A stretch of DNA of 54,935 nucleotides from a virus: positions 1-54,935 of the IMG/VR virus record IMGVR_UViG_3300019863_000057; one strand, 5' to 3'. The notes beneath the pieces were generated by a model. That model made no database searches and had not been told where the DNA came from. It worked only from the letters and a program-made list of their open reading frames with translations. Both the position numbers and the translations under genes were made by a program. The stretch's first letter is position 1. The number at the start of each line of letters is the position of its first letter. Shown piece after piece: positions 16,892 to 50,521 of this stretch.

Positions 16892-16895
16892 AAAA

Positions 16896-16928
16896 AGAGA
16901 AAGGATAGTATTAAGCTATCCTTTCTCT
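16896..16928 (-). terminator. Intrinsic terminator of the thyX strand
   Basis: A perfect 13-bp stem with a 7-nt loop between convergent transcripts. On the minus strand it is followed by a run of seven T, so it mainly terminates thyX-side transcription. Confidence 0.65.
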
Positions 16929-16929
16929 G

Positions 16930-17300
16930 ACTATGACCATCCATGTAGCCTATATAGTCGATAGGACTATATGTGTGATCGACCTTATCTAGCTGCAAAC
17001 GTTTTCTTAATTCCTTAGTAATACCATAACTAGTCTTACCTATAAGTACTTCATCTACAAATATAGATCTAATGGCTTTTTCAGACCATGCTTTTATAAC
17101 TAGCGATATGTTATCTAACTGGACATCAGAAAGTCCCTTAGACTCTACTGAATCTAATGTTAAATGACCACTCTCCTTTAAGCTCTTTTTAATGTATACC
17201 TGCTACTCTTAACACTAAAATTACCAGACATGTGTCTAGCCAACTCTTGTAGTATTACTCTGCTACGCCCTTTTATATAAAAATTAACTACACTGTTTTT
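16930..17300 (-). pseudogene. Decayed thyX-like fragment
   Basis: On the minus strand at 17200-17292 the translation contains VILQELARHMSGNFSVKS followed by SRYTLK. It aligns with AVLQELARHRSANLSVKS and SRYTLN of the intact ThyX just upstream, including the RHRx7SxRY-type flavin/dUMP motif. The frame is then broken by a stop and continues in another frame for ~90 codons down to about 16930 with no start codon and no ribosome binding site. The second Arg of the RHR signature is Met here. This is the remnant of a second or ancestral thyX 3' half left behind the functional copy. It fills the stretch between the terminator and thyX. Confidence 0.7.
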
Positions 17301-17309
17301 TATCTACTA

Positions 17310-18269
17310 TTATACTAATGGTATTTTTATATCTCTACCCATATCTTCTAATATAGGCAATGGTAGTATAGTAGTAATATGTCTAGCTAATGATCGTATC
17401 TGATACCAAGCCGAATCGTTTAATCTAAGCTGTAAAAAGTTAGCTAACCCACTGTATGTAAAAGAGAGTACTAATTCTGTCCTATAAGCCTCAGGCATGG
17501 CTGTCTTAATCTTATCTATGCTCTTACCAGAATTAACAAGTCGCCTTAGGTTCTCTAATGCTAATATAGCTGCTCTATCAACATCATCATGACCAGTAAA
17601 GACTAAATACTCGTTAGCCCTAGCTTTCTGTTCTTTAGTTATTAAGAATAGAAATTTAAACTGCTTCTCGTGCTTAAGTTCATTAAGTGTGTATCTACTA
17701 CTCTTAACACTAAGGTTAGCTGATCTATGTCTAGCTAGTTCTTGAAGAACAGCCCTACTACATCCTTTTATATGGAAGTTAAAAGAAGCATTTTCTTTAG
17801 AAGCTGTTGTATAGGTATGGTGACTATCAGAAAGTAAATTTATAGTAGTACCATAATTATCTTTGATATGTATACTAGGGGATGGGGTGTTAAGTCCCAT
17901 AACTTCATATGGCTTGTTAGTTACTAGAAAAAGATACTCTTCTGGTAGTAATGCCTCATAATCTATATCCGTAAATCTCATATCTCCCAAAGCTCTCATG
18001 TTAGTAGTTATAACCCATGTGCCATTGGTAGGTGTTGCTATAGAGAAATTATTATCCCTAAATACTGAAGCTATCGCGTAGTCGTGCGTAGTAAATATAA
18101 TGTGTATGTGTTCTATAGTACTTCTATGTTTAAATTTATTAGCTATTCTATCCATCCTCTTAATATCACATACTGGCTTTTGTTTATCCCAACAAACACC
18201 TATAGCCATATCAGCTACCCATAATGGTGTTATGTATATTAACTCCACATTATTCTTATTAATATTCAT
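17310..18269 (-). CDS. thyX: Flavin-dependent thymidylate synthase ThyX
   Basis: 319 residues from ATG 18269, chosen because AAGGATG lies just upstream and ThyX proteins normally begin shortly before this VELIYITPL strand; the frame stays open 24 codons further to 18341. The ThyX signature RHRSANLSVKSSRY is at about residues 176-190, and the C-terminal helical part (SGLANFLQLR) is complete. ThyX makes dTMP from dUMP using CH2-folate, FAD and NADPH. With the dCMP deaminase at 22675 it supplies dTMP for phage DNA. It is divergent from terL and followed by a decayed thyX fragment. Confidence 0.9.
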   Translation of the reverse strand: MNINKNNVELIYITPLWVADMAIGVCWDKQKPVCDIKRMDRIANKFKHRSTIEHIHIIFTTHDYAIASVFRDNNFSIATPTNGTWVITTNMRALGDMRFTDIDYEALLPEEYLFLVTNKPYEVMGLNTPSPSIHIKDNYGTTINLLSDSHHTYTTASKENASFNFHIKGCSRAVLQELARHRSANLSVKSSRYTLNELKHEKQFKFLFLITKEQKARANEYLVFTGHDDVDRAAILALENLRRLVNSGKSIDKIKTAMPEAYRTELVLSFTYSGLANFLQLRLNDSAWYQIRSLARHITTILPLPILEDMGRDIKIPLV

Positions 18270-18385
18270 TCTTACATCCTTAATAATATATTCATTTAAA
18301 CCTATGTAGCTTATAAAGTATATGGCAGCCTTATATAACATGATAAAAAGCCATCTTAGAGATAAGAAGGTTATAAGGAATATTA

Positions 18386-20524
18386 ATGATATTATTTAAA
18401 ACTGACTGGGTTAAGGAAGAGAACTTTGGTGCCATCATAGACACTAAAACAAATAACAAGAGCTTCCTAAGAGTAGCTGGATTACTAAAGTCTATGAATG
18501 TAGAGAACCATGCATTTATGTTATCTTTACTAAATCCTGAGTTACAAGGTGTAGACCCCTATAGTGAGGGCTTAACTTCTGAACAGCAGGAAGCTATAGC
18601 TGTCGAGTGTTACCTTAATCCTTGGTATTTTTTTAGAGAGGTATTTAGGATACCACCAACATCTGGTAGCACACCTATCATGCTTAGAGCTAATAGAGCC
18701 AATATAGCTTACATATGGCTAACACTAAATCACATAACATCTTATCTCATACAACCTCGTCAGACAGGTAAAAGTTTGAACTTAACTTCTATGCTAACTT
18801 ATACTACTGGTATAAAAGCAAGCCATATCAATGCTGGTGTATTAACAAAAGATGATAAACTAAGGATCAAGACTTCTTTAGATATAAAAGACCAACTTGA
18901 AACATTGCCAGGCTTTCTAAGATTACTAGGTAAAAAAGATCTTAAGAACTCTGAAAGGATAACAGTTAAGAATCTTAATAATGCTATAACACTAGTAGTA
19001 GCACAGAAAGATAAAAAGGCTGCTGATAACCTAGGAAGAGGTGATACTAAACCTGTATGGGTCATAGACGAGTTAGCTTATCTATACAACCTAAAGATAA
19101 CACTACCTGTTTTATTATCTTCTACTACAGCTGCTAGAGAACAAGCTAAAGAAGAGAACCAAGCTTACTTCACATCATTCGCTACTACTCCTGGTAAACT
19201 TAACTCTGAAGAAGGAGCTTTTGCATATGAGGTATATAACTCAGCGCTAAGGTTCAATGAGAAGTATTATGATGTAAAAGATGAAGATACCATCATGGAG
19301 ATAGTTAGGAAGAATAGTGGTAAGTTCAAAGTTATGTTATTGGAGTTCAGTCATAGACAGCTAGGTTTCCCAGATGAGTGGATCAGGAAGCGTATGGAAG
19401 TCGCTATGGTAGATGGTGAGAGTGCTGAGAATGAGTTCTTATTAAAATGGATGGTTGGTAATACTTCTAGTCCGATACCTAAGAAACTATTAGAAGTTAT
19501 AGTAGCTTCTAAGAAAACAGAATTTAATCCATTTATAAGTAAATATGGATATGTCTTAAAATGGTATGTTAACAATAAAGAATTAAACCAGTTAAAGAAA
19601 CATGGCTTCATTATCATAGGACTTGATACTTCTGATGCGCTGGGAGGTGAGAATGATGGTATAGGTCTTACTATAAGAGATGTTACTACAGGTGCTATAG
19701 TAGGGGCTGCTAATGTTAATGAAACCAACCTAGCCACTTATGCAGATTTTCTAGTAGAGTTATTAGAGGAGTTCCCTAATAGCATACTAGTACCAGAGAG
19801 AAGATCATCTGCTATGGCTATCATGGATAATATGTTCAGGATCATGCTAATAAAAGGTATGAACCCATTTAAGAGGATATTTAACTGGGTTATACAAGAT
19901 ACTATAAAATATAAAGAAGTATTACCATATACAGTTAAGACTAAATCTATAACCATAGAGATACTAAATAAATATAAGAAACTATTTGGTTTTGCTACTT
20001 CAGGTGCTGGTGAGACTAGTAGGAGTTTACTATATGGTAATGTATTCAGATCTATGATAAGATATACTGCTGATAAGACTAATGATCCAGAGCTTATCAA
20101 TCAGCTATCTGGGTTAAGGATAGTTAACAACAGGATAGATCACGCTGCTAATGGGCATGATGATATGGTCATAGCATCATTGTTAAGTATGTGGTTCCTA
20201 TCTTATAGTAAGAATAAGAAACTCTATGGTATCAAGACTGAGAATGTATTAAGTATGGTTGTTGATAATGAACTGCTTAATGAGAATGATGATAAGATAG
20301 ATAAGAAGAAAGTAGAGGAACAGAAGAGGATAAAGAGCTCTATAGAATCCCTTAGCAATAGACTTAAGATAACTACTAATGTCATGGTAGGCTCACAGCT
20401 GTTTAATAGGATACAAGCGCTGAAAGAGAAGATAGATCCTAGTATCATCAAGAACTTCTCCATAGATGCCTTATTGGATAATATTAAGATAGTAACTAAA
20501 ATAAAAAAGTTACATAATAAATAA
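18386..20524 (+). CDS. terL: Terminase large subunit
   Basis: 712 residues, ATG after AAGGAATATTA. ATPase domain: Walker A QPRQTGKSLN at about residues 124-133, Walker B VWVIDELAYL at about 222-231. Nuclease domain: IIIGLDTSDALGGENDG from about 409, VPERRSS near 470, and NGHDDMVIASLL near 590, giving the acidic residues of an RNase H-like fold. TerL cuts concatemers and pumps DNA into the prohead. It ends at a bidirectional hairpin. No small terminase is evident beside it. Confidence 0.92.
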   Translation: MILFKTDWVKEENFGAIIDTKTNNKSFLRVAGLLKSMNVENHAFMLSLLNPELQGVDPYSEGLTSEQQEAIAVECYLNPWYFFREVFRIPPTSGSTPIMLRANRANIAYIWLTLNHITSYLIQPRQTGKSLNLTSMLTYTTGIKASHINAGVLTKDDKLRIKTSLDIKDQLETLPGFLRLLGKKDLKNSERITVKNLNNAITLVVAQKDKKAADNLGRGDTKPVWVIDELAYLYNLKITLPVLLSSTTAAREQAKEENQAYFTSFATTPGKLNSEEGAFAYEVYNSALRFNEKYYDVKDEDTIMEIVRKNSGKFKVMLLEFSHRQLGFPDEWIRKRMEVAMVDGESAENEFLLKWMVGNTSSPIPKKLLEVIVASKKTEFNPFISKYGYVLKWYVNNKELNQLKKHGFIIIGLDTSDALGGENDGIGLTIRDVTTGAIVGAANVNETNLATYADFLVELLEEFPNSILVPERRSSAMAIMDNMFRIMLIKGMNPFKRIFNWVIQDTIKYKEVLPYTVKTKSITIEILNKYKKLFGFATSGAGETSRSLLYGNVFRSMIRYTADKTNDPELINQLSGLRIVNNRIDHAANGHDDMVIASLLSMWFLSYSKNKKLYGIKTENVLSMVVDNELLNENDDKIDKKKVEEQKRIKSSIESLSNRLKITTNVMVGSQLFNRIQALKEKIDPSIIKNFSIDALLDNIKIVTKIKKLHNK

Positions 20525-20533
20525 ATAGAATAT

Positions 20534-20563
20534 ATACATAGGATACTTTTGTATCCTATGTAT
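20534..20563. terminator. Bidirectional terminator hairpin
   Basis: A 13-bp perfect stem with a TTTT loop between terL (+) and the convergent gene ending at 20566. Confidence 0.65.
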
Positions 20564-20565
20564 GG

Positions 20566-20844
20566 TTATCTTTTATAAGTTTCTATAGCAGCTTTAGCTA
20601 TAGGTGATACTCTTAACTTCATTGGTTCCATACCATTAGCAACAGCATGCTTAAGTAGTGTATGTTTAACATCTTCAAAGTTGAATATTTCTGAAAATAT
20701 CTTTTTACCATGTTCACTACTTATCTTATTTATTTCAGCTTTGATTACTATAAGAGTTCTAACCTTCATAGTGTACTTACAAGTTATGAGATAGTTACCT
20801 ATAGCATACTTAACTTCATATGTTTCTTGTTTTTCTTTACCCAC
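20566..20844 (-). CDS. Small unrecognised protein
   Basis: 92 residues, basic, with a Shine-Dalgarno sequence (AAGGTAAAG) before the ATG. It has a beta-like N-terminus (YEVKYAIGNYLITCKYTMKV) followed by helices. It is the last gene of the minus operon that carries the prohead protease. No motif recognised. Confidence 0.65.
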   Translation of the reverse strand: MGKEKQETYEVKYAIGNYLITCKYTMKVRTLIVIKAEINKISSEHGKKIFSEIFNFEDVKHTLLKHAVANGMEPMKLRVSPIAKAAIETYKR

Positions 20845-20927
20845 TTTACCTTCCTTGTTGTTTTTTTTTCATTAAAAAATAATATGTAATAAAAACATAT
20901 GGAGATACATCCACATGCTTTTAGATA

Positions 20928-21686
20928 TTACCAGTTATATAAGATAGGCTTCTCAGCTTTCTCTTTCTCTTCTAGACCTTGTAGTATTTTCTCTACATCT
21001 TCTTGATGTTCAGTACCACTAGACACTAACTCTTTTAGTTTAGGGATACAAGAACCATTTAAACATAGTACTCCAGAGTCATCTTGTACATGATTACTAT
21101 TCTCTATACCACTAGCCGCCCATGACGTAGCACCTTTAACACCGTTCTCAAAAACGAAGTCCCAAGTAGATATCTCTAGTACATTACGAACCATAGTAGC
21201 ACCTATGCGTTTCTCTATAACGGCACTTCTGATACTGAAAGGAACATTCTCATCAGGGTTCTCTAAAGCTGACTTCAAGACCTCTGCTTTAGCACCAGAT
21301 GGTTTAACCCAACCTTCTACTCTATAAATAGGATATCCAGACCAACCTGGCTCATATGTTTTAGTATCTATGAACTCGATACCTTTAATATGCCCACATA
21401 CGTTATTAAGATCTATAGTAAGGATCTTGCTTAATAATGCATTACCAGATAGCCCTGTGAAGTCTGGATGGTTAACTTCTGCTTTTAATACACCATTAGA
21501 TATTCTCTCACCAACTATACTCTTAGGACCAGTTAGTCTGTTAATATCATCTACTCTATAGAATACACCATTAGAGTTATACGCATTTAAAGCTCCAAAT
21601 ACCATCTTGTGGTAACCATTCTCATCTACTACTATACCACTCTTACCAGAGTTAGCTTTTTTACTTTCTAAAATTACATCTGCCAC
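20928..21686 (-). CDS. Prohead maturation protease (T4 gp21-like)
   Basis: 252 residues. LKAEVNHPDF places a candidate catalytic His at residue 73, and VPFSIRSAV places the candidate nucleophile Ser at 151 (or Ser 154), the His...Ser arrangement and FS(I/V)RS-type motif of the T4 gp21/U9/herpes-assemblin protease family; phiKZ uses a related enzyme (gp175). The enzyme cleaves scaffold and propeptides inside the prohead. The C-terminal ~50 residues are charged and could be a self-cleaved tail. Neighbours are an HNH nuclease gene upstream and a small gene downstream. Confidence 0.75.
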   Translation of the reverse strand: MADVILESKKANSGKSGIVVDENGYHKMVFGALNAYNSNGVFYRVDDINRLTGPKSIVGERISNGVLKAEVNHPDFTGLSGNALLSKILTIDLNNVCGHIKGIEFIDTKTYEPGWSGYPIYRVEGWVKPSGAKAEVLKSALENPDENVPFSIRSAVIEKRIGATMVRNVLEISTWDFVFENGVKGATSWAASGIENSNHVQDDSGVLCLNGSCIPKLKELVSSGTEHQEDVEKILQGLEEKEKAEKPILYNW

Positions 21687-21702
21687 TTTATCATCCTTTA
21701 TT

Positions 21703-22032
21703 TTATTTATTCATCTCATGGTTAGAAAACTTATCCTTAAGATAGTAAACTAATGTTCTAAAGTTTTCAAAATCATACTTGGTACACTTCTGTCTAAAAC
21801 TTCTCTTAAAGTTACAATGGAACTGAGTATGACAATCGCTACATAATGTAACACCATTTTTAATATCAAAATGCTCATCTGGGAAATATGAAGCTGAGTT
21901 CATATGGTGTGCTTCTCTCCCTTGTCTACTGCCGCATATCTGACAAACTTTGTCTCTTCTTATAACAGTAGTTCTCCAGATACGATACTCTTTACTATGT
22001 CGCCAATGTTGCTTACTCTTAGAATAGCTCAT
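21703..22032 (-). CDS. HNH endonuclease
   Basis: 109 residues. CQICG and CSDCH form a two-pair zinc site around the HNH core REAHHMNSASYFPDEHFDIKN (about residues 45-65). The length fits a stand-alone HNH homing or packaging-associated nuclease. Basic ends (KSKQHWRHSKEYR and KRSFRQKCTK) suit DNA binding. In many phages such a gene lies near terminase and head genes and aids packaging; homing activity is the alternative. Confidence 0.85.
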   Translation of the reverse strand: MSYSKSKQHWRHSKEYRIWRTTVIRRDKVCQICGSRQGREAHHMNSASYFPDEHFDIKNGVTLCSDCHTQFHCNFKRSFRQKCTKYDFENFRTLVYYLKDKFSNHEMNK

Positions 22033-22067
22033 AAGTTTTCCTTTATATTTAATTCAAAAGAAAAAAA

Positions 22068-22085
22068 GCTATGGGTTACCATAGC
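22068..22085 (-). terminator. Intrinsic terminator
   Basis: A 7-bp stem GCTATGG/CCATAGC with a GTTA loop followed on the minus strand by a run of seven T. It follows the lysin gene. Confidence 0.65.
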
Positions 22086-22658
22086 CTAGTCTAAAATACT
22101 ATCAAACATATAAGGATGCTTAAGATTAAAAATCTTGATAGCTTTTATACGATTATATATCCTATTAGCATAGTAGTAATTAGGTATAGTACCGCCATTA
22201 TAAGAGCCCCATGCTTTAACATAGTCACCCTTATATCTTTTTACCCAGTATTTCATAAGTGTTAAACCTATATGTAACGCGTATGCGTCATTACGCATTA
22301 GTTTAGTAGCTAATGCTACTTTAGAATACAAGTTAACTTTTATACGATTATTCCTCATATAAGATTTTATATTAATACCTACTATACCATAATCTCCAGT
22401 TAAGTTAAAAATATACTTACCAGCAGTAGACTCCTCCATACATACAGCAGCCATCGTATAGCTAAGATCGTCTGATCTACTTGCCTGATACACAAACTCC
22501 ATGATATCTAACTGATTAGCACTATAATGCTCCAGTTCATTAAGATACTTACTAACAAGAGCCTTATCATATTTTACTAAACTTTTATTGTTACTCTTAG
22601 CGTATGATGTTGTTACCACCATAGCTAAGATACCTATCATCCATATCATCTTCTTCAT
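22086..22658 (-). CDS. Secreted lytic transglycosylase-like endolysin
   Basis: 190 residues with a clear signal peptide (MKKMIWMIGILAMVVTTSYA). The mature part has AAVCMEESTAGKY (about residues 70-82), with a Glu followed by Ser as in the catalytic ES of SLT-type transglycosylases, then GDYGIVGINI (88-97) and a GSYNGG motif near 151, the SLT order E..., G(L/I)xQ-like, AYNxG-like. It would cleave the peptidoglycan glycan strand after Sec export, independent of a holin. It is separated from the spanin cassette by 24 kb and lies on the other strand. Confidence 0.75.
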   Translation of the reverse strand: MKKMIWMIGILAMVVTTSYAKSNNKSLVKYDKALVSKYLNELEHYSANQLDIMEFVYQASRSDDLSYTMAAVCMEESTAGKYIFNLTGDYGIVGINIKSYMRNNRIKVNLYSKVALATKLMRNDAYALHIGLTLMKYWVKRYKGDYVKAWGSYNGGTIPNYYYANRIYNRIKAIKIFNLKHPYMFDSILD

Positions 22659-22674
22659 GTCTACTCCTATTATA

Positions 22675-23229
22675 TCAAACCTTACTTACTTCTATATCAT
22701 GTCTGAGTAGTAAGGCTATACCATCTTCATTTTTATAAGCTTCTTTATACACTACTCTACTTATACCAGACTGTACTATGAGCTTAGCACAAGTGATACA
22801 TGGTGATGTTGTAACATAGAGTATTGTACCAGTTATGGGTATACCATACTTAGCAGCATATACTATGGCATTCTGTTCAGCATGTAAAGTCTCATCTTTA
22901 GTAGCTAAGAACTCTTCTTCATATTCATGCAGATAAACATCACTGTAGTTATGTGTAGTACCACATTCACATGTTACCTGATGTACATCTTCATACTCAT
23001 CGAACATATGATCTATATTATGTTTCTTACCACAGCTAGCACACTCTATAACATGTTCTTCACAGTCATTACTACTACCTTTTGTAGTTCCATTATAACC
23101 TATGGATACGATCCTGTTATCTTTAGCTATAACAGAACCAACTTGTCTTCTCCTACAGTATGATTGTTTAGACCATAATATAGCCGTATCCATCATAACC
23201 TTATCGTACTTCTCACACATCGTTATCAT
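22675..23229 (-). CDS. dCMP deaminase with an extra zinc-finger insert
   Basis: 184 residues; an ATG at 23220 is an alternative start. The cytidine-deaminase zinc motifs are HAEQNAIVYA (about residues 116-125) and TTSPCITCAKL (about 140-150). Between the first strand and the HAE motif there is an insert with two Cys pairs (CASCGK and CECGT) that would bind a second zinc. The enzyme converts dCMP to dUMP, the substrate of ThyX, so the two genes form one pathway. It overlaps the upstream gene's stop by up to 17 nt. Confidence 0.88.
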   Translation of the reverse strand: MITMCEKYDKVMMDTAILWSKQSYCRRRQVGSVIAKDNRIVSIGYNGTTKGSSNDCEEHVIECASCGKKHNIDHMFDEYEDVHQVTCECGTTHNYSDVYLHEYEEEFLATKDETLHAEQNAIVYAAKYGIPITGTILYVTTSPCITCAKLIVQSGISRVVYKEAYKNEDGIALLLRHDIEVSKV

Positions 23230-23473
23230 CCCTGTATGTACTATATGGAACTAGGTCTACTAGATCCGTATGCATGATGACATCTTTAGCATTATCTGTT
23301 ATGGTAGTATTAAGGTCATGTATGAAATCTATTATCTTAGCATATTTATACTTTACCATATCTTTAGGTATAGCCACACAAGATTTATGTGCTGCTATGA
23401 ACCTAGGACTAGTAGCAGTGTTGTATCTACCTAGTAGATCTCTGTATATATAATAGTAATCATTATCTTTCAT
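23213..23473 (-). CDS. Small protein, paralogue of the 24907-25173 product
   Basis: 86 residues. KIIDFIHDLNTTITDNAKDV matches FLTYTDFIYALNTKLTDDAK of the protein at 24907-25173, so the two are paralogues that flank the non-coding cassette. Function unknown. Start ATG follows AAGGAATTAAAT. It is in an operon with the dCMP deaminase. Confidence 0.65.
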   Translation of the reverse strand: MKDNDYYYIYRDLLGRYNTATSPRFIAAHKSCVAIPKDMVKYKYAKIIDFIHDLNTTITDNAKDVIMHTDLVDLVPYSTYRDDNDV

Positions 23474-23475
23474 AT

Positions 23476-23556
23476 TTAATTCCTTGCCGTTATTACTAAC
23501 ATGACTGCTATGCTTATTATAGTAAGTGATGCTATTATTGGTACTAGTGTTTCCAT
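23476..23556 (-). CDS. 26-residue membrane micropeptide
   Basis: ATG after AGGATAAGACA opens a 26-codon ORF that is almost entirely hydrophobic (METLVPIIASLTIISIAVML then VITARN). It forms one membrane span with a positive C-terminus and stops 2 nt before the next start. It is the first gene behind the promoter at 23601-23617. Too small for family assignment, but the ribosome binding site and spacing support it. Confidence 0.55.
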   Translation of the reverse strand: METLVPIIASLTIISIAVMLVITARN

Positions 23557-23600
23557 TGTCTTATCCTGTTGTTGTATTAGAGTTAGAGTATAGCTCTAGT

Positions 23601-23617
23601 CTCATATAAGTAATATA
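23601..23617 (-). promoter_or_regulatory. Conserved phage promoter (TATATTAC type)
   Basis: The minus-strand sequence is TATATTACTTATATGAG, 45 nt upstream of the micropeptide start at 23556, heading the operon 23556 to 20566. Confidence 0.75.
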
Positions 23618-23670
23618 AGGTTATACTAGTTATGATACTAGTTACTAATATAGGATATATTATTTTATAT

Positions 23671-23687
23671 GTTAGTATATAATGACT
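23671..23687 (+). promoter_or_regulatory. Putative plus-strand promoter of RNA-1 (A)
   Basis: GTTAGTATATAATGACT here matches GTTAGTATATTATGAGT at 49954-49970, at the same place in the cassette. TATATTAT resembles the TATATTAC core of the minus-strand promoters. Confidence 0.45.
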
Positions 23688-23689
23688 AT

Positions 23690-23895
23690 AGTAATAATAT
23701 TATTAATGTGACTATACCATCAGATAGTTAGTCAGACAGCTGATGGGGGGACATAGGTATGAGCCAGAGGACCCGAACGAAGTGAGACTCGTGAACCCCG
23801 ACCGGAACCCCAAAGGTGGAGGAAGGATAGGAGCAGCACTAGCTAAAATATAATTATATAAGAGGCTTCGCCTCTTATATTTATTTATTTATTTA
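23690..23895 (+). ncRNA. Candidate structured RNA-1, copy A
   Basis: A GC-rich island (about 23735-23845) in an AT-rich genome, with no open frame. AGCTGATG (23738-23745) can pair with CACTAGCT (23837-23844) to close the domain; inside are a hairpin at 23777-23792 and C-rich stretches able to pair with GGGGGG (23745-23750). It ends in an 11-bp terminator hairpin and a T-rich tail. The copy at 49972-50127 keeps CTGATGG at the start and CACTAGCT at the end but differs between them. It does not match tRNA, tmRNA, RNase P, SRP or intron cores that I know. Confidence 0.55.
23856..23880 (+). terminator. Plus-strand intrinsic terminator of RNA-1 (A)
   Basis: A perfect 11-bp stem with a TTC loop followed on the plus strand by TTTATTTATTTATTT. 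The minus-strand side has no T-run, which fixes the direction. A second 10-bp hairpin lies at 23914-23935. Confidence 0.75.
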
Positions 23896-23969
23896 TTTTC
23901 AATTTAATAGGATACTAGGATAATTTTATCCTAGTCTTCTAATTACCTGATTTTAATAAAAATTAAAAT

Positions 23970-23990
23970 CTTAAGCTGATAAAGCTTAAG
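23970..23990 (+). other. Conserved hairpin of the cassette (A)
   Basis: CTTAAGCT pairs with AGCTTAAG. The equivalent place in copy B (50172-50188) has CTAGCTT pairing with AAGCTAG: different bases, same stem. Confidence 0.5.
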
Positions 23991-24063
23991 AAGCCTTTAT
24001 AGCTTATATATTAGCAATTTTAGCTAGTATCTCTAGTAGAAGATAGAGATATAATAGTAGTAA

Positions 24064-24076
24064 TAATATTACCATA
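24064..24076 (+). promoter_or_regulatory. Putative plus-strand promoter of RNA-2 (A)
   Basis: TAATATTACCATA is identical at 50270-50282 in copy B and resembles the TATATTAC core on the plus strand. It lies ~30 nt before the hairpin that opens RNA-2. Confidence 0.4.
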
Positions 24077-24106
24077 TAGAGATATTATAGAGATACTATA
24101 ACAGTA

Positions 24107-24330
24107 ACTTAAGCTGATAAAGCTTAAGTAGATAGTAGCTCTTACAGTATCTTAATGGCAGATATCTTAACCAAGATATGATGGTGTTGCTCTTGACAGT
24201 ATATGACTGTGCGATTCGTGTTATGGTGATACATATGTGTTATGATGTGTATAAGGTATGTAGAAGAGCTAGATATGATATATGAGTATGAATGTTAGGG
24301 TTGATGGAGATAAGAGCTTCTGAGGCTTAT
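24107..24330 (+). ncRNA. Candidate structured RNA-2, copy A
   Basis: It opens with a 9-bp hairpin (ACTTAAGCT/AGCTTAAGT). AGCTCTTA (24137-24144) pairs with TAAGAGCT (24311-24318) to close a ~180-nt domain. Inside is a conserved 7-bp hairpin ATATCTT-AACC-AAGATAT and a nearby TATCTTAA that could compete for the same strand. Against copy B, the closing pair A-U becomes G.U and a U-A in the inner stem becomes U.G. Both are allowed pairs only on the plus strand, which argues for a plus-strand RNA. Family unknown. Confidence 0.6.
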
Positions 24331-24354
24331 ATGAGAGAAAAGAAAAAATAGGTA

Positions 24355-24384
24355 TATAGGACAGGCTTAGTTGCTTGTCCTATA
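24355..24384 (-). terminator. Minus-strand terminator behind the small-gene cluster
   Basis: A 12-bp stem (with one G.T pair) followed on the minus strand by ATTTTTTCTTTTC. It stops transcripts of the 25785-24685 operon before they enter the RNA cassette. Confidence 0.6.
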
Positions 24385-24684
24385 AAGGTTGTCACCATAT
24401 ACCATTAGCTTCTACAGATATAGCTATGATCTTTTCATTTATTTTTTTAGCATCTTATACTTCTATATACGCTATTGTTAATCTTCATATTGTTTTCCTT
24501 ATTTGTGTCTGATATTAAAAATACCAGCTTATTATCCATATGTGTTACAACTACTTATCTAGATGTTGTCTTACTCTATCTAAGTTAAAAGTCTGGTCTA
24601 TACACTATTCAACTAGCATCGTATTCACTAGACCATCATATGTTCCTTTTGCTTCTATCCCCATAACACTCTGCTGTTATTGTA
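24385..24684 (-). pseudogene. Stretch with decayed coding remnants
   Basis: No intact gene. On the minus strand there are protein-like fragments in shifting frames: MGIEAKGTYDGLVNTMLVE then a stop, a 30-codon piece starting MDNKLVFLISDTNKENN behind no clear ribosome binding site, and DAKKINEKIIAISVEANGIW ending at a stop near 24393, in another frame. The composition fits phage genes, so one or two small accessory genes seem to have decayed here. AAGGAAAACAATATG near 24493 is a remaining start site for a 12-codon frame. Confidence 0.35.
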
Positions 24685-24891
24685 TTACCAGATGTTGTTT
24701 CTAGTAGTGAATCTTTTACTAGCCTGCAAAGGCACCTCTGGGTCGCATGTATCAGTTAGTTTATAAAACGTACATGTGTGTACATAAGTATCTTCGTAAT
24801 ACCAAGCTAGCCATATGTAATTGTATCGGTAATCCTTATTACGCATGTTCCAAACTTTAGTTGGTAACCAAGCGAATCTTTGTTTAAGCAT
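24685..24891 (-). CDS. Small aromatic-rich protein, unknown
   Basis: 68 residues, very rich in Trp and Tyr (FAWLPTKVWNMRNKDYRYNY and following), with a weak ribosome binding site (GGGATTATGAT). It is the last open frame of the small-gene operon, 15 nt after its neighbour. No family recognised. Weak start signals and decayed sequence downstream leave room for doubt. Confidence 0.5.
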   Translation of the reverse strand: MLKQRFAWLPTKVWNMRNKDYRYNYIWLAWYYEDTYVHTCTFYKLTDTCDPEVPLQASKRFTTRNNIW

Positions 24892-24906
24892 ATCATAATC
24901 CCATAT

Positions 24907-25173
24907 CTAAAAATACATAGCTAGATTGCTATGTTTGATGACATATTTAGCATCATCTGTTAGCTTAGTGTTTAAAGCATAAATGAAATCTGTATATGTT
25001 AAGAACTTAATATTAATAAGCTTCTTATTTACCTTAGCAGACTTCTTAAACTTCTGTCTCAGATGTTCTGTAGGTACAGGTCTATATTTCCATACCTTTT
25101 GTTTATAAACAAATATATTCTCATACTCATCTATATTGGAACTACTAGATAGTAGTTCTGCTCTAGTTAGCAT
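24907..25173 (-). CDS. Small protein, paralogue of the 23213-23473 product
   Basis: 88 residues, basic middle (KFKKSAKVNKKL). Its C-terminal 30 residues, FIYALNTKLTDDAKYVIKHS, match FIHDLNTTITDNAKDVIMHT of the protein at 23213-23473. The pair flanks cassette A. Function unknown. It lies 6 nt downstream of the two-repeat protein gene. Confidence 0.6.
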   Translation of the reverse strand: MLTRAELLSSSSNIDEYENIFVYKQKVWKYRPVPTEHLRQKFKKSAKVNKKLINIKFLTYTDFIYALNTKLTDDAKYVIKHSNLAMYF

Positions 25174-25179
25174 GTTAAC

Positions 25180-25785
25180 TTACTTTGTTTTTATAGGATG
25201 TTTTTTATCCTTAGATAGCTCTATATATTCATTCATGGGTATTTTCTTACTACCATGATAATATCCGCTATTAAGGATATAGAGTTCATTTCCATCTAGG
25301 TCGTTAATATCTACAGATTGGAACTCTTGTTCAGCATGTACCCAACCAGCTTCTATCTTAGTTACTGGTTCTAAAGTTTCTTCATCAGTACCCATGACTT
25401 CATCAACCGTTTTTTCAACATCTTCTTGTTTAGCTGGTTGGTTATTATATTTAATAATGTAATCGTTATACTCGTCAGTAGTTATCGCAGTAGTACCACG
25501 GTAGCATATACCATCTAAAATATATAACTCTCTATCACATACATTAGCAACATCTATGGGTAAGAATCTCTGTTCAGCATGTACCCATGCTAACTTCATA
25601 ACATTTACTATAGGCACGAACGCCTTTTTACTATATGGGTCATCAGGATCCAATGGTGTCCGTAAGGCATACTCAGAATCTCCAAAATAGTCATCTACTA
25701 GTTTCTTTATATCTGAAACCAACACTCTCCCATTTATTTCATTAGGCAATAAAACCCTATTTAAAATTAAATCTCCAAAAGCCAT
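25180..25785 (-). CDS. Protein with two internal ~45-residue repeats
   Basis: 201 residues. The second half contains two copies of one unit: WVHAEQRFLPIDVANVCDRE then LYILDGICYRG, and WVHAEQEFQSVDINDLDGNE then LYILNSGYYHG, about 85 residues apart, joined by an acidic linker (DVEKTVDEVMGTDEETLEP). The fold may be a small beta-domain pair. There is no enzyme motif. It opens the operon behind the promoter at 25822-25838. Function unknown. Confidence 0.7.
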   Translation of the reverse strand: MAFGDLILNRVLLPNEINGRVLVSDIKKLVDDYFGDSEYALRTPLDPDDPYSKKAFVPIVNVMKLAWVHAEQRFLPIDVANVCDRELYILDGICYRGTTAITTDEYNDYIIKYNNQPAKQEDVEKTVDEVMGTDEETLEPVTKIEAGWVHAEQEFQSVDINDLDGNELYILNSGYYHGSKKIPMNEYIELSKDKKHPIKTK

Positions 25786-25821
25786 ACAAGCCCTCCTATG
25801 TTTTTTTATTTACCTTGTTAA

Positions 25822-25838
25822 GGCATATAAGTAATATA
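25822..25838 (-). promoter_or_regulatory. Conserved phage promoter (TATATTAC type)
   Basis: The minus-strand sequence is TATATTACTTATATGCC, 37 nt upstream of the start at 25785. The divergent gene starts at 25915. Confidence 0.75.
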
Positions 25839-25914
25839 AGGCTATATTTATATGGAGACTCATATATGATATCTTAATGCCTAGTTGTTTTGAATAAATC
25901 AATAAGGAATCATA

Positions 25915-26649
25915 ATGGAAAGTTTAGACATAACTAAGTTTAAAAGAAATCCTAAATTTATGGATAAGTATACAATTACTAAAGGTAATAATGTTACAGC
26001 TAAAGAAGAGTTGTATTATTTATTCCCAGATAAGTTCCTAGATAAGAACCTAGCTGTTATAGATGTTACCTCTACACTTTTAGCATGTATGGCTATATGT
26101 AATAATAAAGATGAGTATGCCGTATTAAATCTACCTTGTAAGATCAAGGTTAGCCCTTCTAGTACAGAAGAGGTTATGATAGGGGATGTGCTTTATCAGA
26201 AGGTAGTCATGGATGAAGGTGATCTTATTATAGATGACTTAAAGTACGTTAAGAATGGTAACATGGTTTATCATGTATTTGAATACTTCGTTATACAAGG
26301 TAAGATCCCTTGGTATCTAGAGTATGAAGATGTATTCGAGTTGTTTAACAACATACCTGAGTATACGGCTACTTCTGTTGGTAAGGATCCATTGGTATTC
26401 GAGATATTAACTTCTATCATAACTAGAACTCAAAAAGATATCAAGATCTCTTATAGGAATGCTATCAATACTGAAGCTGATAAGATTAATACTAAAGCTA
26501 GATATATAGGTCTTATGGATATTTGGTATACATTTAAATCTACACTATCTAAGATAGCTGGAAGTTATATGAAAGATGGTATAGTAAGTTCTATAGTAAA
26601 TGGTCCTGGTAAAGAAGCCACTGACTTAGAGAAGATCATAAGGAGTTAA
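25915..26649 (+). CDS. Probable virion structural protein
   Basis: 244 residues, ATG after AAGGAATCATA. The middle has beta-like segments and FEYFVIQGKIPWYLEYEDVF (about residues 122-141); the C-terminal third is helical (TRTQKDIKISYRNAINTEAD). I have a general sense that this resembles a phiKZ-type structural protein, but cannot name it. It stands alone on the plus strand between minus-strand operons. Confidence 0.65.
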   Translation: MESLDITKFKRNPKFMDKYTITKGNNVTAKEELYYLFPDKFLDKNLAVIDVTSTLLACMAICNNKDEYAVLNLPCKIKVSPSSTEEVMIGDVLYQKVVMDEGDLIIDDLKYVKNGNMVYHVFEYFVIQGKIPWYLEYEDVFELFNNIPEYTATSVGKDPLVFEILTSIITRTQKDIKISYRNAINTEADKINTKARYIGLMDIWYTFKSTLSKIAGSYMKDGIVSSIVNGPGKEATDLEKIIRS

Positions 26650-26810
26650 TTTTTATCTATATATACTTATAATGACCATGTAGTTAAAAAACCTCTTTAA
26701 AATCATCTATACCTGATTTTAGTTTATATTTTCTCACTCCTTAAACTGTATCTATAAAAAACTATGACATCCTTTTATAACTACATCATAACTCATGGTT
26801 GAACAAATTT

Positions 26811-26847
26811 CATATACTACTAGGAATAATATTCCTAGTAGTATATG
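26811..26847. terminator. Long perfect hairpin, repeat of the one at 339
   Basis: A 17-bp perfect stem with a 3-nt loop just after the stop of the gene at 26855-28309. The core ACTACTAGGAATAATAT is shared with 339-372. There is no T-run right after it on either strand. Confidence 0.55.
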
Positions 26848-26854
26848 TTTGCTT

Positions 26855-28309
26855 TTAAGCTATTTCAGTTTGTCCTATTAAGTATAATAAGATAAGTCTT
26901 AATGTAGCATAACCAGCTAATGGTTTAACATCATCTGTATCTAATAACTCTTTAGCTTCTCTAACCCCTTCAGCGAAGATCTTGAAGTTAGTATTACTAG
27001 AGATGAAGTTCTCTACGATATACATAGTTGTGTTATAAGTATCATATAGGTCAGATATCTTACAGCCGTTGATATAAGCTTCAGCTTCTGCTCTGATAGT
27101 ATCATCTTTATAACTCATGACTCTATCTAAAGCTATAAGGTAATACGCTCTTAAAGAGCTAGCGGCTTCGTTTCTGTTCTTAAGGATATAAGCATTTTGT
27201 ATAGAGTTTCTTAATGAGTCATAAGAGGGCTTGTTAACTATTAAGTCATCATTCTTAATATAAAGGGGTTTGAACATATTAGGAATATTATTTTCATAAA
27301 CATTGAACTCTGTAAAGATAGCACCTAAGATAGTCTTCATGCTACCATTAGAACTACTCATATACTCACTGAAGTTATCTTCTATAGCATATACGATATA
27401 CTTATCTTCTTTAACTTCTATAGCAGATACTACTAACTTGTTTCTAAGGCTTACCGTATACTGGTTCTTGATTCTCTTATATGTATCTATCACATAGTTA
27501 AGAGCAGCATCTATGTTACTGTATTCAGCCTCACCTTTATTAGCAGATAATAGTTTATCTCTAAATATAATAACTAAACCAACTGCAGCATTGATGTCTT
27601 TGATTCTGAGATCAGAAAGTCTAGATTTAAAGCTACCAACACTAGTACTAGCAAGTAAATTATTCATAGTAGCTATAGTATCATCGCCAAGAGCTTTAAA
27701 CGCTTCATCAGCTAAGAGTTTTACTTCTAAGTCATTCTTAACTTCATAGATGCTGTTAGACATATTAGTAGGTAAGATACCAGTATCTGTTTCATTAAGA
27801 GATTTATTCAACCAGCTTTTTTCATCTAAGATGTCTGCAAGGTCAACTTCTTTAATAAGCTGTACAGCAAAGCTATTCTCTACGATAGGTTCTTTCTCTA
27901 GAGTCTTGAGCATATCTTCTAGATAAGTGTTATAATTCTTAGCCATGAACGAGTAGTTATTTTTATAAGTATCTATCTCTAAAGAAATTCTCTTAGAGAT
28001 GTTCTCAAGAACTTCATTATTAAACTGTGAGATACCAAATTTATCGAAAGACTCATTACTAGAGTTAGAGATTAAGTTAACCCAACTGTTGTTTAAAGGC
28101 CTGATAAAACCTTTTACATCTTTATGAGCGGCAAGGGCTTCTTGGTACATAAGCTTATATCTATTACTTAAGATAGCCTCTCCAACGATCTGTATACGGT
28201 TAGCCGCGTATGACTTGTCTATATTGTCATTACTAACCTTACGTATGATAGCATTAGCTATGTTTATTAGTTTAGTAGCCATGACATCATTTTCTTTTCT
28301 GAGAATCAT
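26855..28309 (-). CDS. Helical protein, probable virion component
   Basis: 484 residues, nearly all helical by composition (Leu, Ile, Lys, Asn, Glu), with a conserved-looking hydrophobic C-terminus (LAGYATLRLILLYLIGQ). ATG at 28309 is preceded by AAGGATAGGTA. It lies between a small gene and the RNAP beta gene, as structural genes do in phiKZ-like phages. No motif identifies it, and I saw no resemblance I could defend to the nuclear shell protein. Confidence 0.65.
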   Translation of the reverse strand: MILRKENDVMATKLINIANAIIRKVSNDNIDKSYAANRIQIVGEAILSNRYKLMYQEALAAHKDVKGFIRPLNNSWVNLISNSSNESFDKFGISQFNNEVLENISKRISLEIDTYKNNYSFMAKNYNTYLEDMLKTLEKEPIVENSFAVQLIKEVDLADILDEKSWLNKSLNETDTGILPTNMSNSIYEVKNDLEVKLLADEAFKALGDDTIATMNNLLASTSVGSFKSRLSDLRIKDINAAVGLVIIFRDKLLSANKGEAEYSNIDAALNYVIDTYKRIKNQYTVSLRNKLVVSAIEVKEDKYIVYAIEDNFSEYMSSSNGSMKTILGAIFTEFNVYENNIPNMFKPLYIKNDDLIVNKPSYDSLRNSIQNAYILKNRNEAASSLRAYYLIALDRVMSYKDDTIRAEAEAYINGCKISDLYDTYNTTMYIVENFISSNTNFKIFAEGVREAKELLDTDDVKPLAGYATLRLILLYLIGQTEIA

Positions 28310-28385
28310 TACCTATCCTTTATGTTTGTTTTTTAATTTTCAAAATATGTCACATACACGGCATATAAAGAAAAAAATAAATATG

Positions 28386-28412
28386 CCTATAGGGGATATA
28401 ACCCTATAAGCT
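28386..28412 (-). terminator. Intrinsic terminator
   Basis: On the minus strand an imperfect hairpin (CTTATAGGG with CCCTATAGG) is followed by ATATTTATTTTTTTC, right at the stop of the gene at 28404-28697. It weakens read-through into 28309. Confidence 0.45.
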
Positions 28413-28697
28413 TTTAAACGGTTCTGTTTTTAGAAGATCTAAAACATCATCGATATCAGTCATAGCGTCGAAAGAGAGCTCGCTATTAGCTAATGCTAGT
28501 CTGATATCTTCCTCTTTAAAATAGCCTAGCAATGTTTTAACTACATCTACATCCTCTGCTAACCGATTAACATCATCTAAGATATCATAGTCACCTATAT
28601 TACTCACATCTATACTAGCTTTCTTAAGCATCTCGTTAATACTTAAAATTTCTTTAGCTATTGTTGCTAACGCATCTAGTGTTTTTTCGTTCATCAT
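28404..28697 (-). CDS. Small acidic helical protein
   Basis: 97 residues, acidic and helical (VNRLAEDVDVVKTLLGYFKE), AGGAGTTC before the ATG. It is the first gene behind the promoter at 28728-28744. No recognised family. Confidence 0.7.
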   Translation of the reverse strand: MMNEKTLDALATIAKEILSINEMLKKASIDVSNIGDYDILDDVNRLAEDVDVVKTLLGYFKEEDIRLALANSELSFDAMTDIDDVLDLLKTEPFKSL

Positions 28698-28727
28698 GAA
28701 CTCCTGTTATATTTATTTACCTGTTAT

Positions 28728-28744
28728 GGCATATTAGTAATATA
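28728..28744 (-). promoter_or_regulatory. Conserved phage promoter (TATATTAC type)
   Basis: The minus-strand sequence is TATATTACTAATATGCC, 31 nt upstream of the start at 28697. It follows the RNAP beta gene, so it separates the two transcription units. Confidence 0.75.
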
Positions 28745-28790
28745 TATGTGAGATTATTTAGAAACTAAGCCTGAGTCTAGATTCTAAGTT

Positions 28791-31700
28791 CTATTTAAAA
28801 TAAATATCTACAGCATTATCAGTTATCTTCTTAAGTACGGATGCAGTAGTACCCATGTTATAAGCACTATTGACGATACGAGCATATATACCTTTAAGAC
28901 TAAATAAAGCATCTATTTCAGTACCATCGTCAGATAGTATAGGATCTTTATATATACTAGCTACGGTAGACTTTAGCTGTGCTGATATGATACCCTTATC
29001 TGCTACATGTAACCCAGAGTTGATCTCTATGTAGAATTTTATATGTACTTTACCCTCGCCAAGAGGTTTACCGTTTATACTATATCCACTACTAACTCTT
29101 CCTGACTTACCTTCCATATAAGGTTCACTAGTAGCTACTAGTTTCTTAAGACTTCTACTAAGCTCTTTAGGTTCGCAATTATAATAGACTTTAAGCTTAA
29201 TGAGTTTACCTTTATACTTAGCTTTAGGAGTACTCTTAACGAATCCTTGTAAAAGATCTAGAGTCTCTTCACTCATAACACCATCTTCATTAAGTCCAGT
29301 CGTTATCATAAATAGAGGATCAGTAGGAGTAACTTTAATGCCCATATCTAGAACACCTTTAATAGATTCAGTGTTATCTAATGTAAGGTCTCTTATCTTA
29401 ACGTGTGTTATAGAACTAGCTTCAGCAAGTTTCTCACTTACCATAAGCGAATCTTCATCAGTTTCACTAGTTTCCATTAAGCCTACCATGGCATTAGTAC
29501 TAGCCCTATATACAATTCTTCTTCTATTAAACATATCTGTATCGAAGAATGAAATATCATAATAGACGATATCATCTTTAACTAACTTATCTTTCTCTTT
29601 AAGACTAGTGGCCATCCTATGCATGAACGAGCTATTAGACTCCTCTTTAGAAGTCCAGTCTTTAAAAGTATAAGTCTTCTTACCTAGTTTTTTATATTGT
29701 ATAGTTACAGAGTTTTTAGTTACTCTAGTTACAACTCCATCATCTTCAGCAGCTACTACATATTTAGAACCTACTTTATAAGGAACTACAGCTTCATAAC
29801 CAGTTCTTACTGGATATACTTCAGCGTTATCTATGGGAACAAGATGACTATTTTGTATATTCATATACAGAACCCTCTTAGGATCATCTGCAGTTGCGAA
29901 TGGCACTAGCATAGCTGATGTACTTAAAACATTACTCCAGTTAAGTTTACCATCTTCATTCTTAGTACCTCTAGCATTAGCAAATTTAGGGTTAGCAGAA
30001 AGATAAGCTGTTATACCTACATCACTACTATCTTTAGAAGATTCACTCATGATACCAACATCATCTTCATGCATGGCTCTATCTTTACCAACTAAAGATT
30101 CTTTACTTCTACCACCAGCACCTAATAGTGTAGTATCTTCACTCTGTTTTAGATCCGCTATAGGGTTTAAGTCATCTACTAATACTCCAGAGCTATCTTC
30201 ATTAAGACTCCTCCATACATCATATGGATCTACTACCATCTTACCCCTACCAAAACTATCACCACTTATCTTCTTCTTAACTGCTGATACTAATGTTTTA
30301 TAAACTAACTGAGGTATCCTATCATAGCCTTTAATAACAAACCCTTTGAAGCTATTAGGATGTTTATAGTTATCATCCACTAACATCTCAGCAGCCCTAA
30401 CTAACAGACCAACAAAAGTAGTAGGTTCATCAGTAAGCTCTAATGTAGATCTAGATACAGGATCTATGAAGAGAGTCTCTAAGGCTTTTATCTCTGTTAC
30501 CGATACGAGATTAAGTTTCATCTCTTTAAAGATGAACATAGCTTGGTCTTTATGGTTAAGCATATCGAAAGTCATCTGCTTCATGATCTTAATATCATTA
30601 TTAAATCCATTAAGTATCATAGAGTCAGTTTCGTTATTAGGATATAAAATTAAAGTAGAACCATCTAATTTAACTACTATAGTCTTATCATCTACTTCTA
30701 CTCTCTTATTACCATCTAATACTTCATACTTTATTTTAAGAGTTTTAAGCACATTCTTAAGTCCCATATAGTAAGTTAAAAGATAAGCTACTGGAACATA
30801 GCTTTTAAATATCTTAACCATGCTATACTCTTTCTTAAGAGAAGTTGTGTTTATAGGAACTAAATCAAATATGGTACCTAGCTTAGTATACTTACCATTA
30901 TAGCTATAGATTATATTATCCTCATCCATAACTAACAGATCTTTAGAAGCATGCCCGCATAATATGTATTTCTTATTATGCTCTATAGTCTCTAGTTTAA
31001 GATCTTTAGTAGTTATAAGCTCTTTCCTCTTATCGAAGTTAAAGTTAAAGTAGTAACTCTTATGTTTAAAAGCTTTTACATATCTACCAAATAAAGTATA
31101 ATCTTTAGGTAACTCTTCTCCATATACACTTATAGAACCAGCTGATAGATTAGAGATGATTTCATCTTCATTTAACTTTAACAGTTCTTTCCTAAGACTA
31201 TACCCTCTATCTAGTTTTTTAAACGGAGCCTTATCTACAAAGAGTTTACCATAAGCTGTACTTAATGATACACGGTTGAACTTGATCTTCTTTAAGATAG
31301 CATCAGCTTTTTGATTCCTTAGTAAATACTCATTATTAGAGATAGTGAATACGCCCTTATCATTAACTCTAGGTATCATAAGTTTAACAGTACTACCTGC
31401 TGTCTTACCTAAGTCATTTACTTTTATAGCATATTCATCATAGTCACCTAGGGTATCATCATGCGGTATGATCTCTATATCTTCTACTATCATGCCTGTA
31501 CCTTGTATGCCCATGATGCTAGATACCATATCTTTCTTAAAAGCTTCCTTCATATACTTCTTAGTCTTAATAGTTATAGGATCATGAAGCTCCTCTTTAT
31601 TAAAGACAACATTTACATCTGGTAATCTAGTCTCTTGTTCTGTTATATCTATATCAGCTTTATCTACAGTAAGGTTATCTTTTATCTTAGTACCATCTTT

Positions 31701-49812: not shown

Positions 49813-49953
49813 ATTTTAGTTCCTTTAGATAATGATATTTTCAAGCCAATTAGCTAATATAGAAAAAGCAGTTTGGTTATGTAACTGTACTGTATAGGTA
49901 TGTGGTTATCTATAGTAGTCCTATCTATGTGATATAAATATTTATTTTTGTCA

Positions 49954-49970
49954 GTTAGTATATTATGAGT
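49954..49970 (+). promoter_or_regulatory. Putative plus-strand promoter of RNA-1 (B)
   Basis: GTTAGTATATTATGAGT matches the box at 23671-23687 of cassette A, 14 of 17 or better, and resembles the TATATTAC core. Confidence 0.45.
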
Positions 49971-49971
49971 A

Positions 49972-50127
49972 ATGTAATAGTTACTCTAGAACTTACTGAT
50001 GGCCTGGACAGGATTCCAGGGGAATGTAAGGGCAGGACCAGAGTGGAGTCTCAGACGAAACGACTAACCTACACTAGCTGGAAAAAAGAGGGTATACTAG
50101 GGGACCGGCTTGCTTATACTTTTTTTA
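49972..50127 (+). ncRNA. Candidate structured RNA-1, copy B
   Basis: GC-rich island (49996-50110). CTGATG (49996-50001) can pair with CACTAG (50072-50077) as in copy A. Inside are CCTGG/CCAGG, CCA/TGG and GTC/GAC hairpins, and GTAAGG can pair with CCTAC. It ends with GTATA...TATAC followed by seven T (50120-50126), a plus-strand terminator. An 80-codon frame starting at 49965 crosses it but has no ribosome binding site and no counterpart in copy A. Confidence 0.55.
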
Positions 50128-50171
50128 ATATAAGAGCGTCAAAAGAAGTTACCAGCTGTAATAAAAAAATA

Positions 50172-50188
50172 CTAGCTTATAAAGCTAG
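50172..50188 (+). other. Conserved hairpin of the cassette (B)
   Basis: CTAGCTT pairs with AAGCTAG around an ATA loop. The same position in copy A has a different but equally perfect stem. Confidence 0.5.
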
Positions 50189-50269
50189 AGAAGCTACTAT
50201 AAAGTAGAAGTTATAGTAGTTACTATAGAAGCTATAATATAAGAGAAGATAGAGATATAATAATAGTAG

Positions 50270-50282
50270 TAATATTACCATA
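50270..50282 (+). promoter_or_regulatory. Putative plus-strand promoter of RNA-2 (B)
   Basis: TAATATTACCATA, identical in copy A at 24064-24076. Confidence 0.4.
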
Positions 50283-50285
50283 ATA

Positions 50286-50500: not shown

Positions 50501-50521
50501 TGAAACAAAAAAAGAAAATGT

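Follow-up and report, generated by a model that had tools for sequence, protein, structure and literature searches.

Two diverged copies of a non-coding cassette, referred to here as copy A and copy B, lie in gaps between the genes of an uncultivated virus, and quite possibly they are paralogous stand-alone non-coding RNA (ncRNA) genes peculiar to this lineage, which is the reading tentatively preferred here. The duplication, the conservation of a core, the GC-rich islands, the purine-rich plus strand, the flanking terminator-like hairpins, and an early promoter motif beside copy A are observed directly; transcription, strand, start site, and any function of the cassettes are inferred. The first-pass annotation of copy A was largely right in what it observed; its reading of the cassette as two plus-strand RNAs is plausible, and was overstated with respect to the GC-rich bodies and the closing stem.

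The stretch of DNA analyzed (the window) comprises positions 1-54,935 of IMG/VR record IMGVR_UViG_3300019863_000057, a single strand of 54,935 nt. Because its gene products include multisubunit RNA polymerase (RNAP) subunits, PhuZ tubulin, terminase, and virion proteins matching phiKZ-like families, the virus is, judging from its genes, a phiKZ-like jumbo phage. Among the matches listed, the RNAP beta subunit was 23-27% identical to those of cultured phages. A sister contig, G001 (a 154,896-base record), represents the same virus and contains the whole window at 99.97% identity, the alignment having 15 single-base mismatches and one 2-base insertion. Relatives were collected by RNAP alignment (the best 80 of 211 stretches, one of which is G001, with 15 added by a second search); within this set, G001 aside, the RNAP was 24-46% identical in the best segment, the closest relative reaching 46%. 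An RNAP search of genome_contigs found no relative. Gene order was kept over long blocks in G002, G003, G004, G010, and G011. At the site corresponding to copy A in G002, the protease (2273-2989) adjoins virion gene w25915 (3053-3778), and at the site corresponding to copy B, w47306 and w51856 are separated by about 650 nt.

Architecture of the two cassettes

According to our own gene list, gap A (23474-24684, 1211 nt) and gap B (49813-50541, 729 nt) are the two largest among 23 gaps of at least 60 nt. Copy A had been described as occupying a 0.7-kb gap; the gap is indeed non-coding and of the largest class, but it extends 300 nt past the end then given, to 24684. These last 300 nt (24385-24684) have no ORF of at least 60 aa, lie downstream of a 68-aa ORF (24685-24891), and look like a decayed minus-strand gene. 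The genes flanking copy A, 23213-23473 and 24907-25173, are paralogous, matching at 30% over 64 aa (E about 1e-7), and both belong to minus-strand units that have early promoters of their own.

In a self-comparison of the window, the top repeat was the match between copies A and B at 24035-24197 and 50203-50375 (145 bits, E 4.6e-35). Both copies have the same order of parts, namely a 5' element, a GC-rich island, a terminator-like hairpin, a second element (element 2), and a far hairpin (Table 1). The core within element 2 is identical at 59 of 60 positions, and over the full alignment of element 2, counting the core, 263 of 363 ungapped positions agree. Alignments of the 5' element, of element 2 upstream of the core, and of element 2 downstream of the core each scored above all 500 shuffles. 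The earlier statement that every part recurs in the same order therefore stands for the order itself, the 5' element, element 2, and the core, but not for the GC-rich bodies, because these do not align between copies: their alignment was matched by 194 of 500 shuffles, and they are alike in composition alone. The same two copies are carried by G001, in which neither a DNA query with copy A nor a covariance model of the core (R1) detected a third. Exact copies of the 34-nt 5' element occur only at these two sites in the window and G001, and it is a possible candidate for a plus-strand promoter. Searching the virus for an antisense target of the core gave a longest shared stretch of 13 nt, and the core has eight 12-nt matches elsewhere in the virus, as many as the top one among ten shuffled controls (range 0-8).

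Table 1. Positions of cassette parts, neighboring signals, and other non-coding elements of the clade. Coordinates refer to the window unless a record is named.
Feature	Position	Strand	Remarks
Early promoter, TTATATTACTTATATGA type	23600-23637	-	PWM 36.3; low border of A, upstream of 86-aa gene 23213-23473
5' element, copy A, 34 nt, GTTAGTATATWATGA	23663-23696	+	local alignment above 500/500 shuffles
Element 1, copy A, GC-rich purine-rich body	23740-23845	+	GC 0.59 over 100 nt
Frame in A, 36 codons	ATG near 23744	+	read by eye
Terminator-like hairpin, copy A, 11 bp, T-rich tail	23856-23880	+	palindromic, listed on both strands
Element 2, copy A, hairpin-rich, AT-rich	23900-24345	+ (listed; tentative)	fold z-scores
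Core, copy A	24138-24197	+	59/60 identical to copy B
Far hairpin, copy A, minus tail TTTTTTCTTTT	24355-24384	-	12-nt arms, 92%
5' element, copy B, 34 nt	49946-49979	+	local alignment above 500/500 shuffles
ORF in B, 80 aa, spanning element 1	49965-50207	+	
Element 1, copy B, GC-rich purine-rich body	49990-50084	+	GC 0.52 at 50011; not alignable to A's
Terminator-like hairpin, copy B, 12 bp	50085-50126	+	3' arm ending in seven T
Element 2, copy B	50135-50515	+ (listed)	fold z-scores
ORF in B, 75 aa, TTG start, within element 2	50232-50459	-	
Core, copy B	50316-50375	+	59/60 identical to copy A
Far hairpin, copy B, minus tail TTTTCTTTTTTT	50522-50552	-	12-nt arms, 100%
Group I intron, this virus, outside window	G001 126163-126599		
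X copy	G003 L124:5839-6100		
X copy	G003 L126:5443-5680		
X copy	G010 L143:4499-4720		
X copy	G011 L120:15330-15592	-	

The GC-rich island noted earlier in copy A is the highest GC peak of the window. The top two 100-nt GC values (0.59 and 0.52, against a mean of 0.329 and sd of 0.049) belong to element 1 of copy A and of copy B, respectively, and both peaks fall inside gaps of the gene list. When element 1 was folded together with the hairpin behind it, copy A outdid its shuffles (z -2.4), whereas copy B did not (z +0.2). Where a plus-strand terminator had been placed after the island, both copies have a terminator-like hairpin with a T-rich plus-side tail, but the hairpins are terminator-like from the minus strand too; in copy B, a run of A on the 5' side makes the hairpin T-rich on the minus strand as well. 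At 23867-23869, three adjacent differences between the window and G001 amount to an exact inversion of the loop in copy A's perfect hairpin (TTC vs. GAA), representing either a real inversion or an assembly flip.

No ORF of at least 60 aa was found in copy A, and the two in copy B are absent from A. A coding reading was rejected: the frames were treated as chance occurrences because no ribosome-binding site of this phage's type was seen by eye and the frames are not common to the two copies. Elsewhere in the window, a 418-nt gap (16892-17309) holds a 100-nt stretch that is 74% identical to part (17683-17782) of the neighboring thymidylate synthase-like gene 17310-18341 and is possibly a partial duplication or remnant of that gene. 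Furthermore, a direct repeat at 54557-54789 (69-nt shift, 74% over 164 nt) overlaps a small minus-strand ORF (54608-54868).

Transcription signals, strand, and folding

An early promoter motif was derived from 30 sites in G001 (consensus TTTCATattTTTTTTAgtTaTATATTACTTATATGAgC) and scored as a position weight matrix (PWM). All ten strong scored sites in the window are on the minus strand (scores 24.5-41.4), and the next-best score, 9.6, falls on the plus strand inside a gene; an eleventh site, preceding ORF 54608-54868, is cut by the window end and was left unscored. The site at the low border of copy A carries the extended AT-rich TATATTAC element by which phiKZ-type early promoters are recognized, and passages of PMC7058600 and PMC5312081 describe such elements in phiKZ-like phages. 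A second motif, TTGAAWW, was found within 60 nt upstream of 20 of the 88 genes whose upstream region is free, where 1.5 were expected, and is taken as a candidate late-type promoter, differing from the TATG of phiKZ and the AACA-6N-TA/G of AR9. Neither motif occurs on the plus strand of either cassette, and the early motif is absent from the interior of both cassettes on either strand. On the lower side of copy B, the search gave no early promoter but only a late-type motif at 49838.

The far hairpins of copies A and B are unlike in sequence, and the last 11 nt of that of copy B lie within the 3' end of ORF 50542-50865. Since their stems are kept and their T-rich tails are on the minus side only, they probably end minus-strand units that start from early promoters at 25821 and 51790; that of copy A would probably terminate the unit 25785-24685 and that of copy B the DHH unit. 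A strict terminator scan of 20000-30000 omits the hairpin of copy A because its T tract begins about 8 nt past the stem. The stem said to close element 2 is more likely the terminator of the neighboring minus-strand unit, and with its T-rich tail on the minus side only it gives no evidence for the end of a plus-strand RNA. A plus-side terminator was not detected at the end of element 2. With the probable terminator above it and the early promoter below it, copy A appears to be the space between the end of one minus-strand unit and the start of the next.

Although their flanking genes are on the minus strand, the cassettes are rich in purines on the plus strand. The purine fraction there is 0.63 in element 1 of A (0.66 over its GC-rich body, 23740-23845) and 0.64 in that of B, and 0.56 and 0.58 in element 2 of A and B, respectively, while the coding strands of this phage have a mean of 0.56 (sd 0.03), with 51 of 52 at or above 0.5. 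Among the 23 gaps, two, both short, reach 0.67, and gap A overall has 0.50. For any cassette RNA we lean to the plus strand; the earlier proposal of plus-strand RNAs is supported by neither a plus-strand promoter motif nor a plus-side terminator for element 2.

Folding of element 2 was compared with dinucleotide shuffles over 23900-24400 in copy A and 50130-50570 in copy B. The plus strand gave z -6.5 and -3.9 and the minus strand z -6.9 and -5.1, respectively, so that the second element is hairpin-rich and folds better than shuffles in both copies, as the claim of a structured second element had it. A two-copy consensus fold beat 100 of 100 column shuffles (z -5.9 on the plus and -6.15 on the minus strand), the column shuffles being of a kind that does not preserve dinucleotides. 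In the plus consensus (72 pairs), both partners differ between the copies in 8 pairs and a single partner in 10, and in the minus consensus (58 pairs) the corresponding counts are 4 and 4; the consensus folds with these supporting changes were selected to fit both copies. When plus-strand helices were taken from A alone, 32 ungapped pairs were changed in B, including 3 compensated, 5 G-U, and 24 lost; from B alone, 9 of 31 changed pairs were kept in A. On the minus strand, single-copy helices kept 7 of 28 and 10 of 43 changed pairs in the other copy. Because most changed pairs from single-copy helices break in the other copy, a shared RNA fold is not demonstrated beyond a few hairpins at most, both copies being hairpin-rich.

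The slightly better minus-strand values bear on the alternative that the cassettes give rise to minus-strand RNA, either behind the early units, by read-through or processing, or, in copy A, from a late-type motif (TTGAAAA) at 23896. For one phiKZ ncRNA, sections of PMC8545117 suggest processing from a 3' UTR, which would be a comparable origin. Both cassettes, however, lie downstream of a probable minus-strand terminator, the motif at 23896 occurs at about chance frequency and has no counterpart at the matching place in copy B, and the minus strand is pyrimidine-rich, contrary to 51 of 52 genes. We regard an origin on this strand as quite improbable.

The main rival to the preferred reading of stand-alone ncRNA genes is a cis-acting DNA element, such as a replication origin or a recombination or segregation site, sitting in the gaps between units and making a transcript unnecessary. 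Its core would be a protein-binding site, and the surrounding AT-rich palindromes would extrude or melt. This would be consistent with structure equally strong on both strands, conservation focused in a 60-bp block, the lack of a plus-strand promoter motif in the cassettes, and the position of copy A, where the minus-strand unit above appears to stop short of the cassette and the unit below starts beyond it. Copy A also has three short direct repeats of a degenerate 21-nt unit, but these form no such array in copy B, and a DNA element has no need for GC-rich purine-biased islands or terminator-like hairpins. On balance this rival is considered somewhat unlikely. If the cassettes were nevertheless DNA elements, they would help in finding an origin or segregation site of the phiKZ-like group; to our knowledge no such site is known in this phage group.

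If the cassettes are ncRNA genes, each would be a small stand-alone locus between two minus-strand transcription units. A purine-rich plus-strand transcript would begin near the shared 34-nt element and extend across the GC-rich body, with a partial stop at the hairpin behind it, and the RNA of element 2 would arise by read-through or from a second start. Function would reside in the 60-nt core, which would act as a decoy or regulator by binding RNA polymerase or a protein of the phage or host.

Searches for homologues and related elements in the clade

Known RNA classes and homologues of the cassettes were sought in several collections. Rfam 15 (including GOLLD, ROOL, OLE, and the group I intron) gave no match in the whole window at the gathering threshold, and a permissive search of the cassettes gave only sub-threshold matches to unrelated families (best 25.7 bits vs. 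60 needed), in keeping with the earlier view that the cassettes match no known class. ARAGORN detected no tRNA or tmRNA gene in the window. The covariance model R1, built from copies A and B only, was applied to 50 of these 80 records (49 related records and G001). It gave two strong matches in G001 and one weak match inside copy A; elsewhere, five matches of at most 22.2 bits (E 0.03-0.71) fell in four records (G026 twice, G019, G022, and G013), the best of them overlapping a weak match of the DNA search with 24100-24340. No convincing homologue of the core was thus found by R1 in the 49 related records, and the covariance search for conserved pairing in related phages that the first-pass annotation had proposed did not bring such pairing to light. 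The DNA search with 24100-24340 against 25 whole records had a best E of 0.025, and cassette DNA against the flanking DNA of relatives gave a single match below 1e-3 (35 nt, in L028, inside an RNAP gene), counted as chance. Two exact-pattern scans of the viral collection returned nothing convincing beyond the same virus, and a similar exact pattern had no match in genome_contigs. Three contigs matching a looser pattern in the viral collection were rejected, as the matches look like chance and lie in coding sequence. Since the R1, DNA, and exact-pattern searches gave no convincing homologue, the cassettes appear, as far as searched, to be peculiar to this lineage among these collections.

Group I introns (RF00028) were found in all four records searched (G001, G003, G010, and G011). 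The G011 intron at 9480-9918 separates two pieces of the RNAP beta gene, and that at 847 in G010 coincides with a break in the RNAP match. Because the clade is rich in such introns, a group I intron reading of the cassettes was considered, and it was rejected, there being no match in the window at the gathering score and none in the cassettes even at E values as high as 5. A broader possibility is a decayed or non-autonomous mobile sequence, e.g. the remnant of an intron or homing unit, with the core kept by gene conversion or recent copying. The introns in this virus and in G003, G010, and G011 would fit such an origin, as would the decay-like 24385-24684 and the paralogous genes 23213 and 24907 beside copy A. 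Against it, RF00028 is unmatched in the window and cassettes at the scores above, the small ORFs of copy B are absent from A, neither cassette is bracketed by the inverted repeats found, and neutral decay would not spare 59 of 60 core bases beside diverged flanks, barring conversion. A mobile remnant is therefore judged unlikely.

Gaps were also scanned for non-coding islands in eight records, some of them in part, which gave the group I introns and a separate kind of island. One family, termed X, has four copies in three sister phages (two diverged copies in G003 and one each in G010 and G011). Its layout consists of an invariant GCGATCACT, 6-8 nt, a stem (P2), an invariant CGACC, and a long hairpin around GCCTC. 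Stem P2 differs in all four copies (GATAGGA/TCCTATC, GTAGG/CCTAC, GTATAGCT/GGCTATAC, and GTTACG/CGTAGC), and three of the four have a G-rich purine tract. MAFFT alignments of X fail to line up P2, and the stems were read copy by copy. The pattern GCGATCACTN{15,45}CGACC gave four matches in 31 records, only at X copies, and the reversed control gave two. Rfam gave nothing at the gathering score for the copies in L120 and L124, and a permissive search of those in L124 and L143 gave only sub-threshold, unrelated matches, three of the four copies having been searched overall. X is a candidate structured RNA with a fully covarying stem, better supported than A and B and perhaps a better lead. This clade thus appears to carry GC-rich structured non-coding loci, and the presence of X in sister phages makes it more likely, by analogy only, that A and B encode RNAs. 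In G003, a further non-coding island rich in GC and purines (L129:12240-12490) adjoins an RNAP gene and has a GC-rich hairpin at its end.

A more elaborate proposal is a two-part RNA module with a fast-changing GC-rich domain and an invariant 60-nt core, in which the paralogues would provide two specificities on one core machinery and X would be the counterpart in sister phages. We hold this version to be doubtful.

Comparison with known systems

As a duplicated non-coding module with a near-invariant core, the cassettes would be a clean experimental target in a phiKZ-like phage. Descriptions of phage ncRNAs other than tRNAs are few, a 2021 paper having counted 21 (as stated in sections of PMC8545117), and the portions of the literature on phage ncRNAs that were covered held nothing resembling this duplicated module.

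Group I introns, one of which occurs in this virus, are likewise repeated structured non-coding elements of the clade, but the cassettes have no RF00028 match and interrupt no visible gene. With X, the cassettes share the character of a GC-rich non-coding island in an AT-rich phiKZ-like genome, and of two diverged copies in one genome, as in G003. In contrast, the invariant GCGATCACT and CGACC elements of X are absent from the window and G001: GCGATCACT followed after 15-45 nt by CGACC has no match in G001, and GAGTGCGATCACT with up to two changes has none in the window. The large ornate phage RNAs ROOL and GOLLD are, in parts of PMC12286853, structured phage RNAs with no function assigned, as the cassette RNAs would be, whereas the cassettes are less elaborate, have no Rfam match, and lie in a window without tRNA genes.

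A comparable setting is that of cultured phiKZ, in which Grad-seq gave two ncRNA candidates, in the 3' UTR of PHIKZ298 and the 5' UTR of p40, as described in sections of PMC8545117. Like these, the cassettes are intergenic, would as RNAs form simple stem-loops, and belong to the same broad phage group. The phiKZ candidates are about 100 and 180 nt and reside in untranslated regions of mRNAs (same sections of PMC8545117), whereas the cassette is duplicated, has a conserved core, and lies, as far as motifs tell, outside the flanking units.
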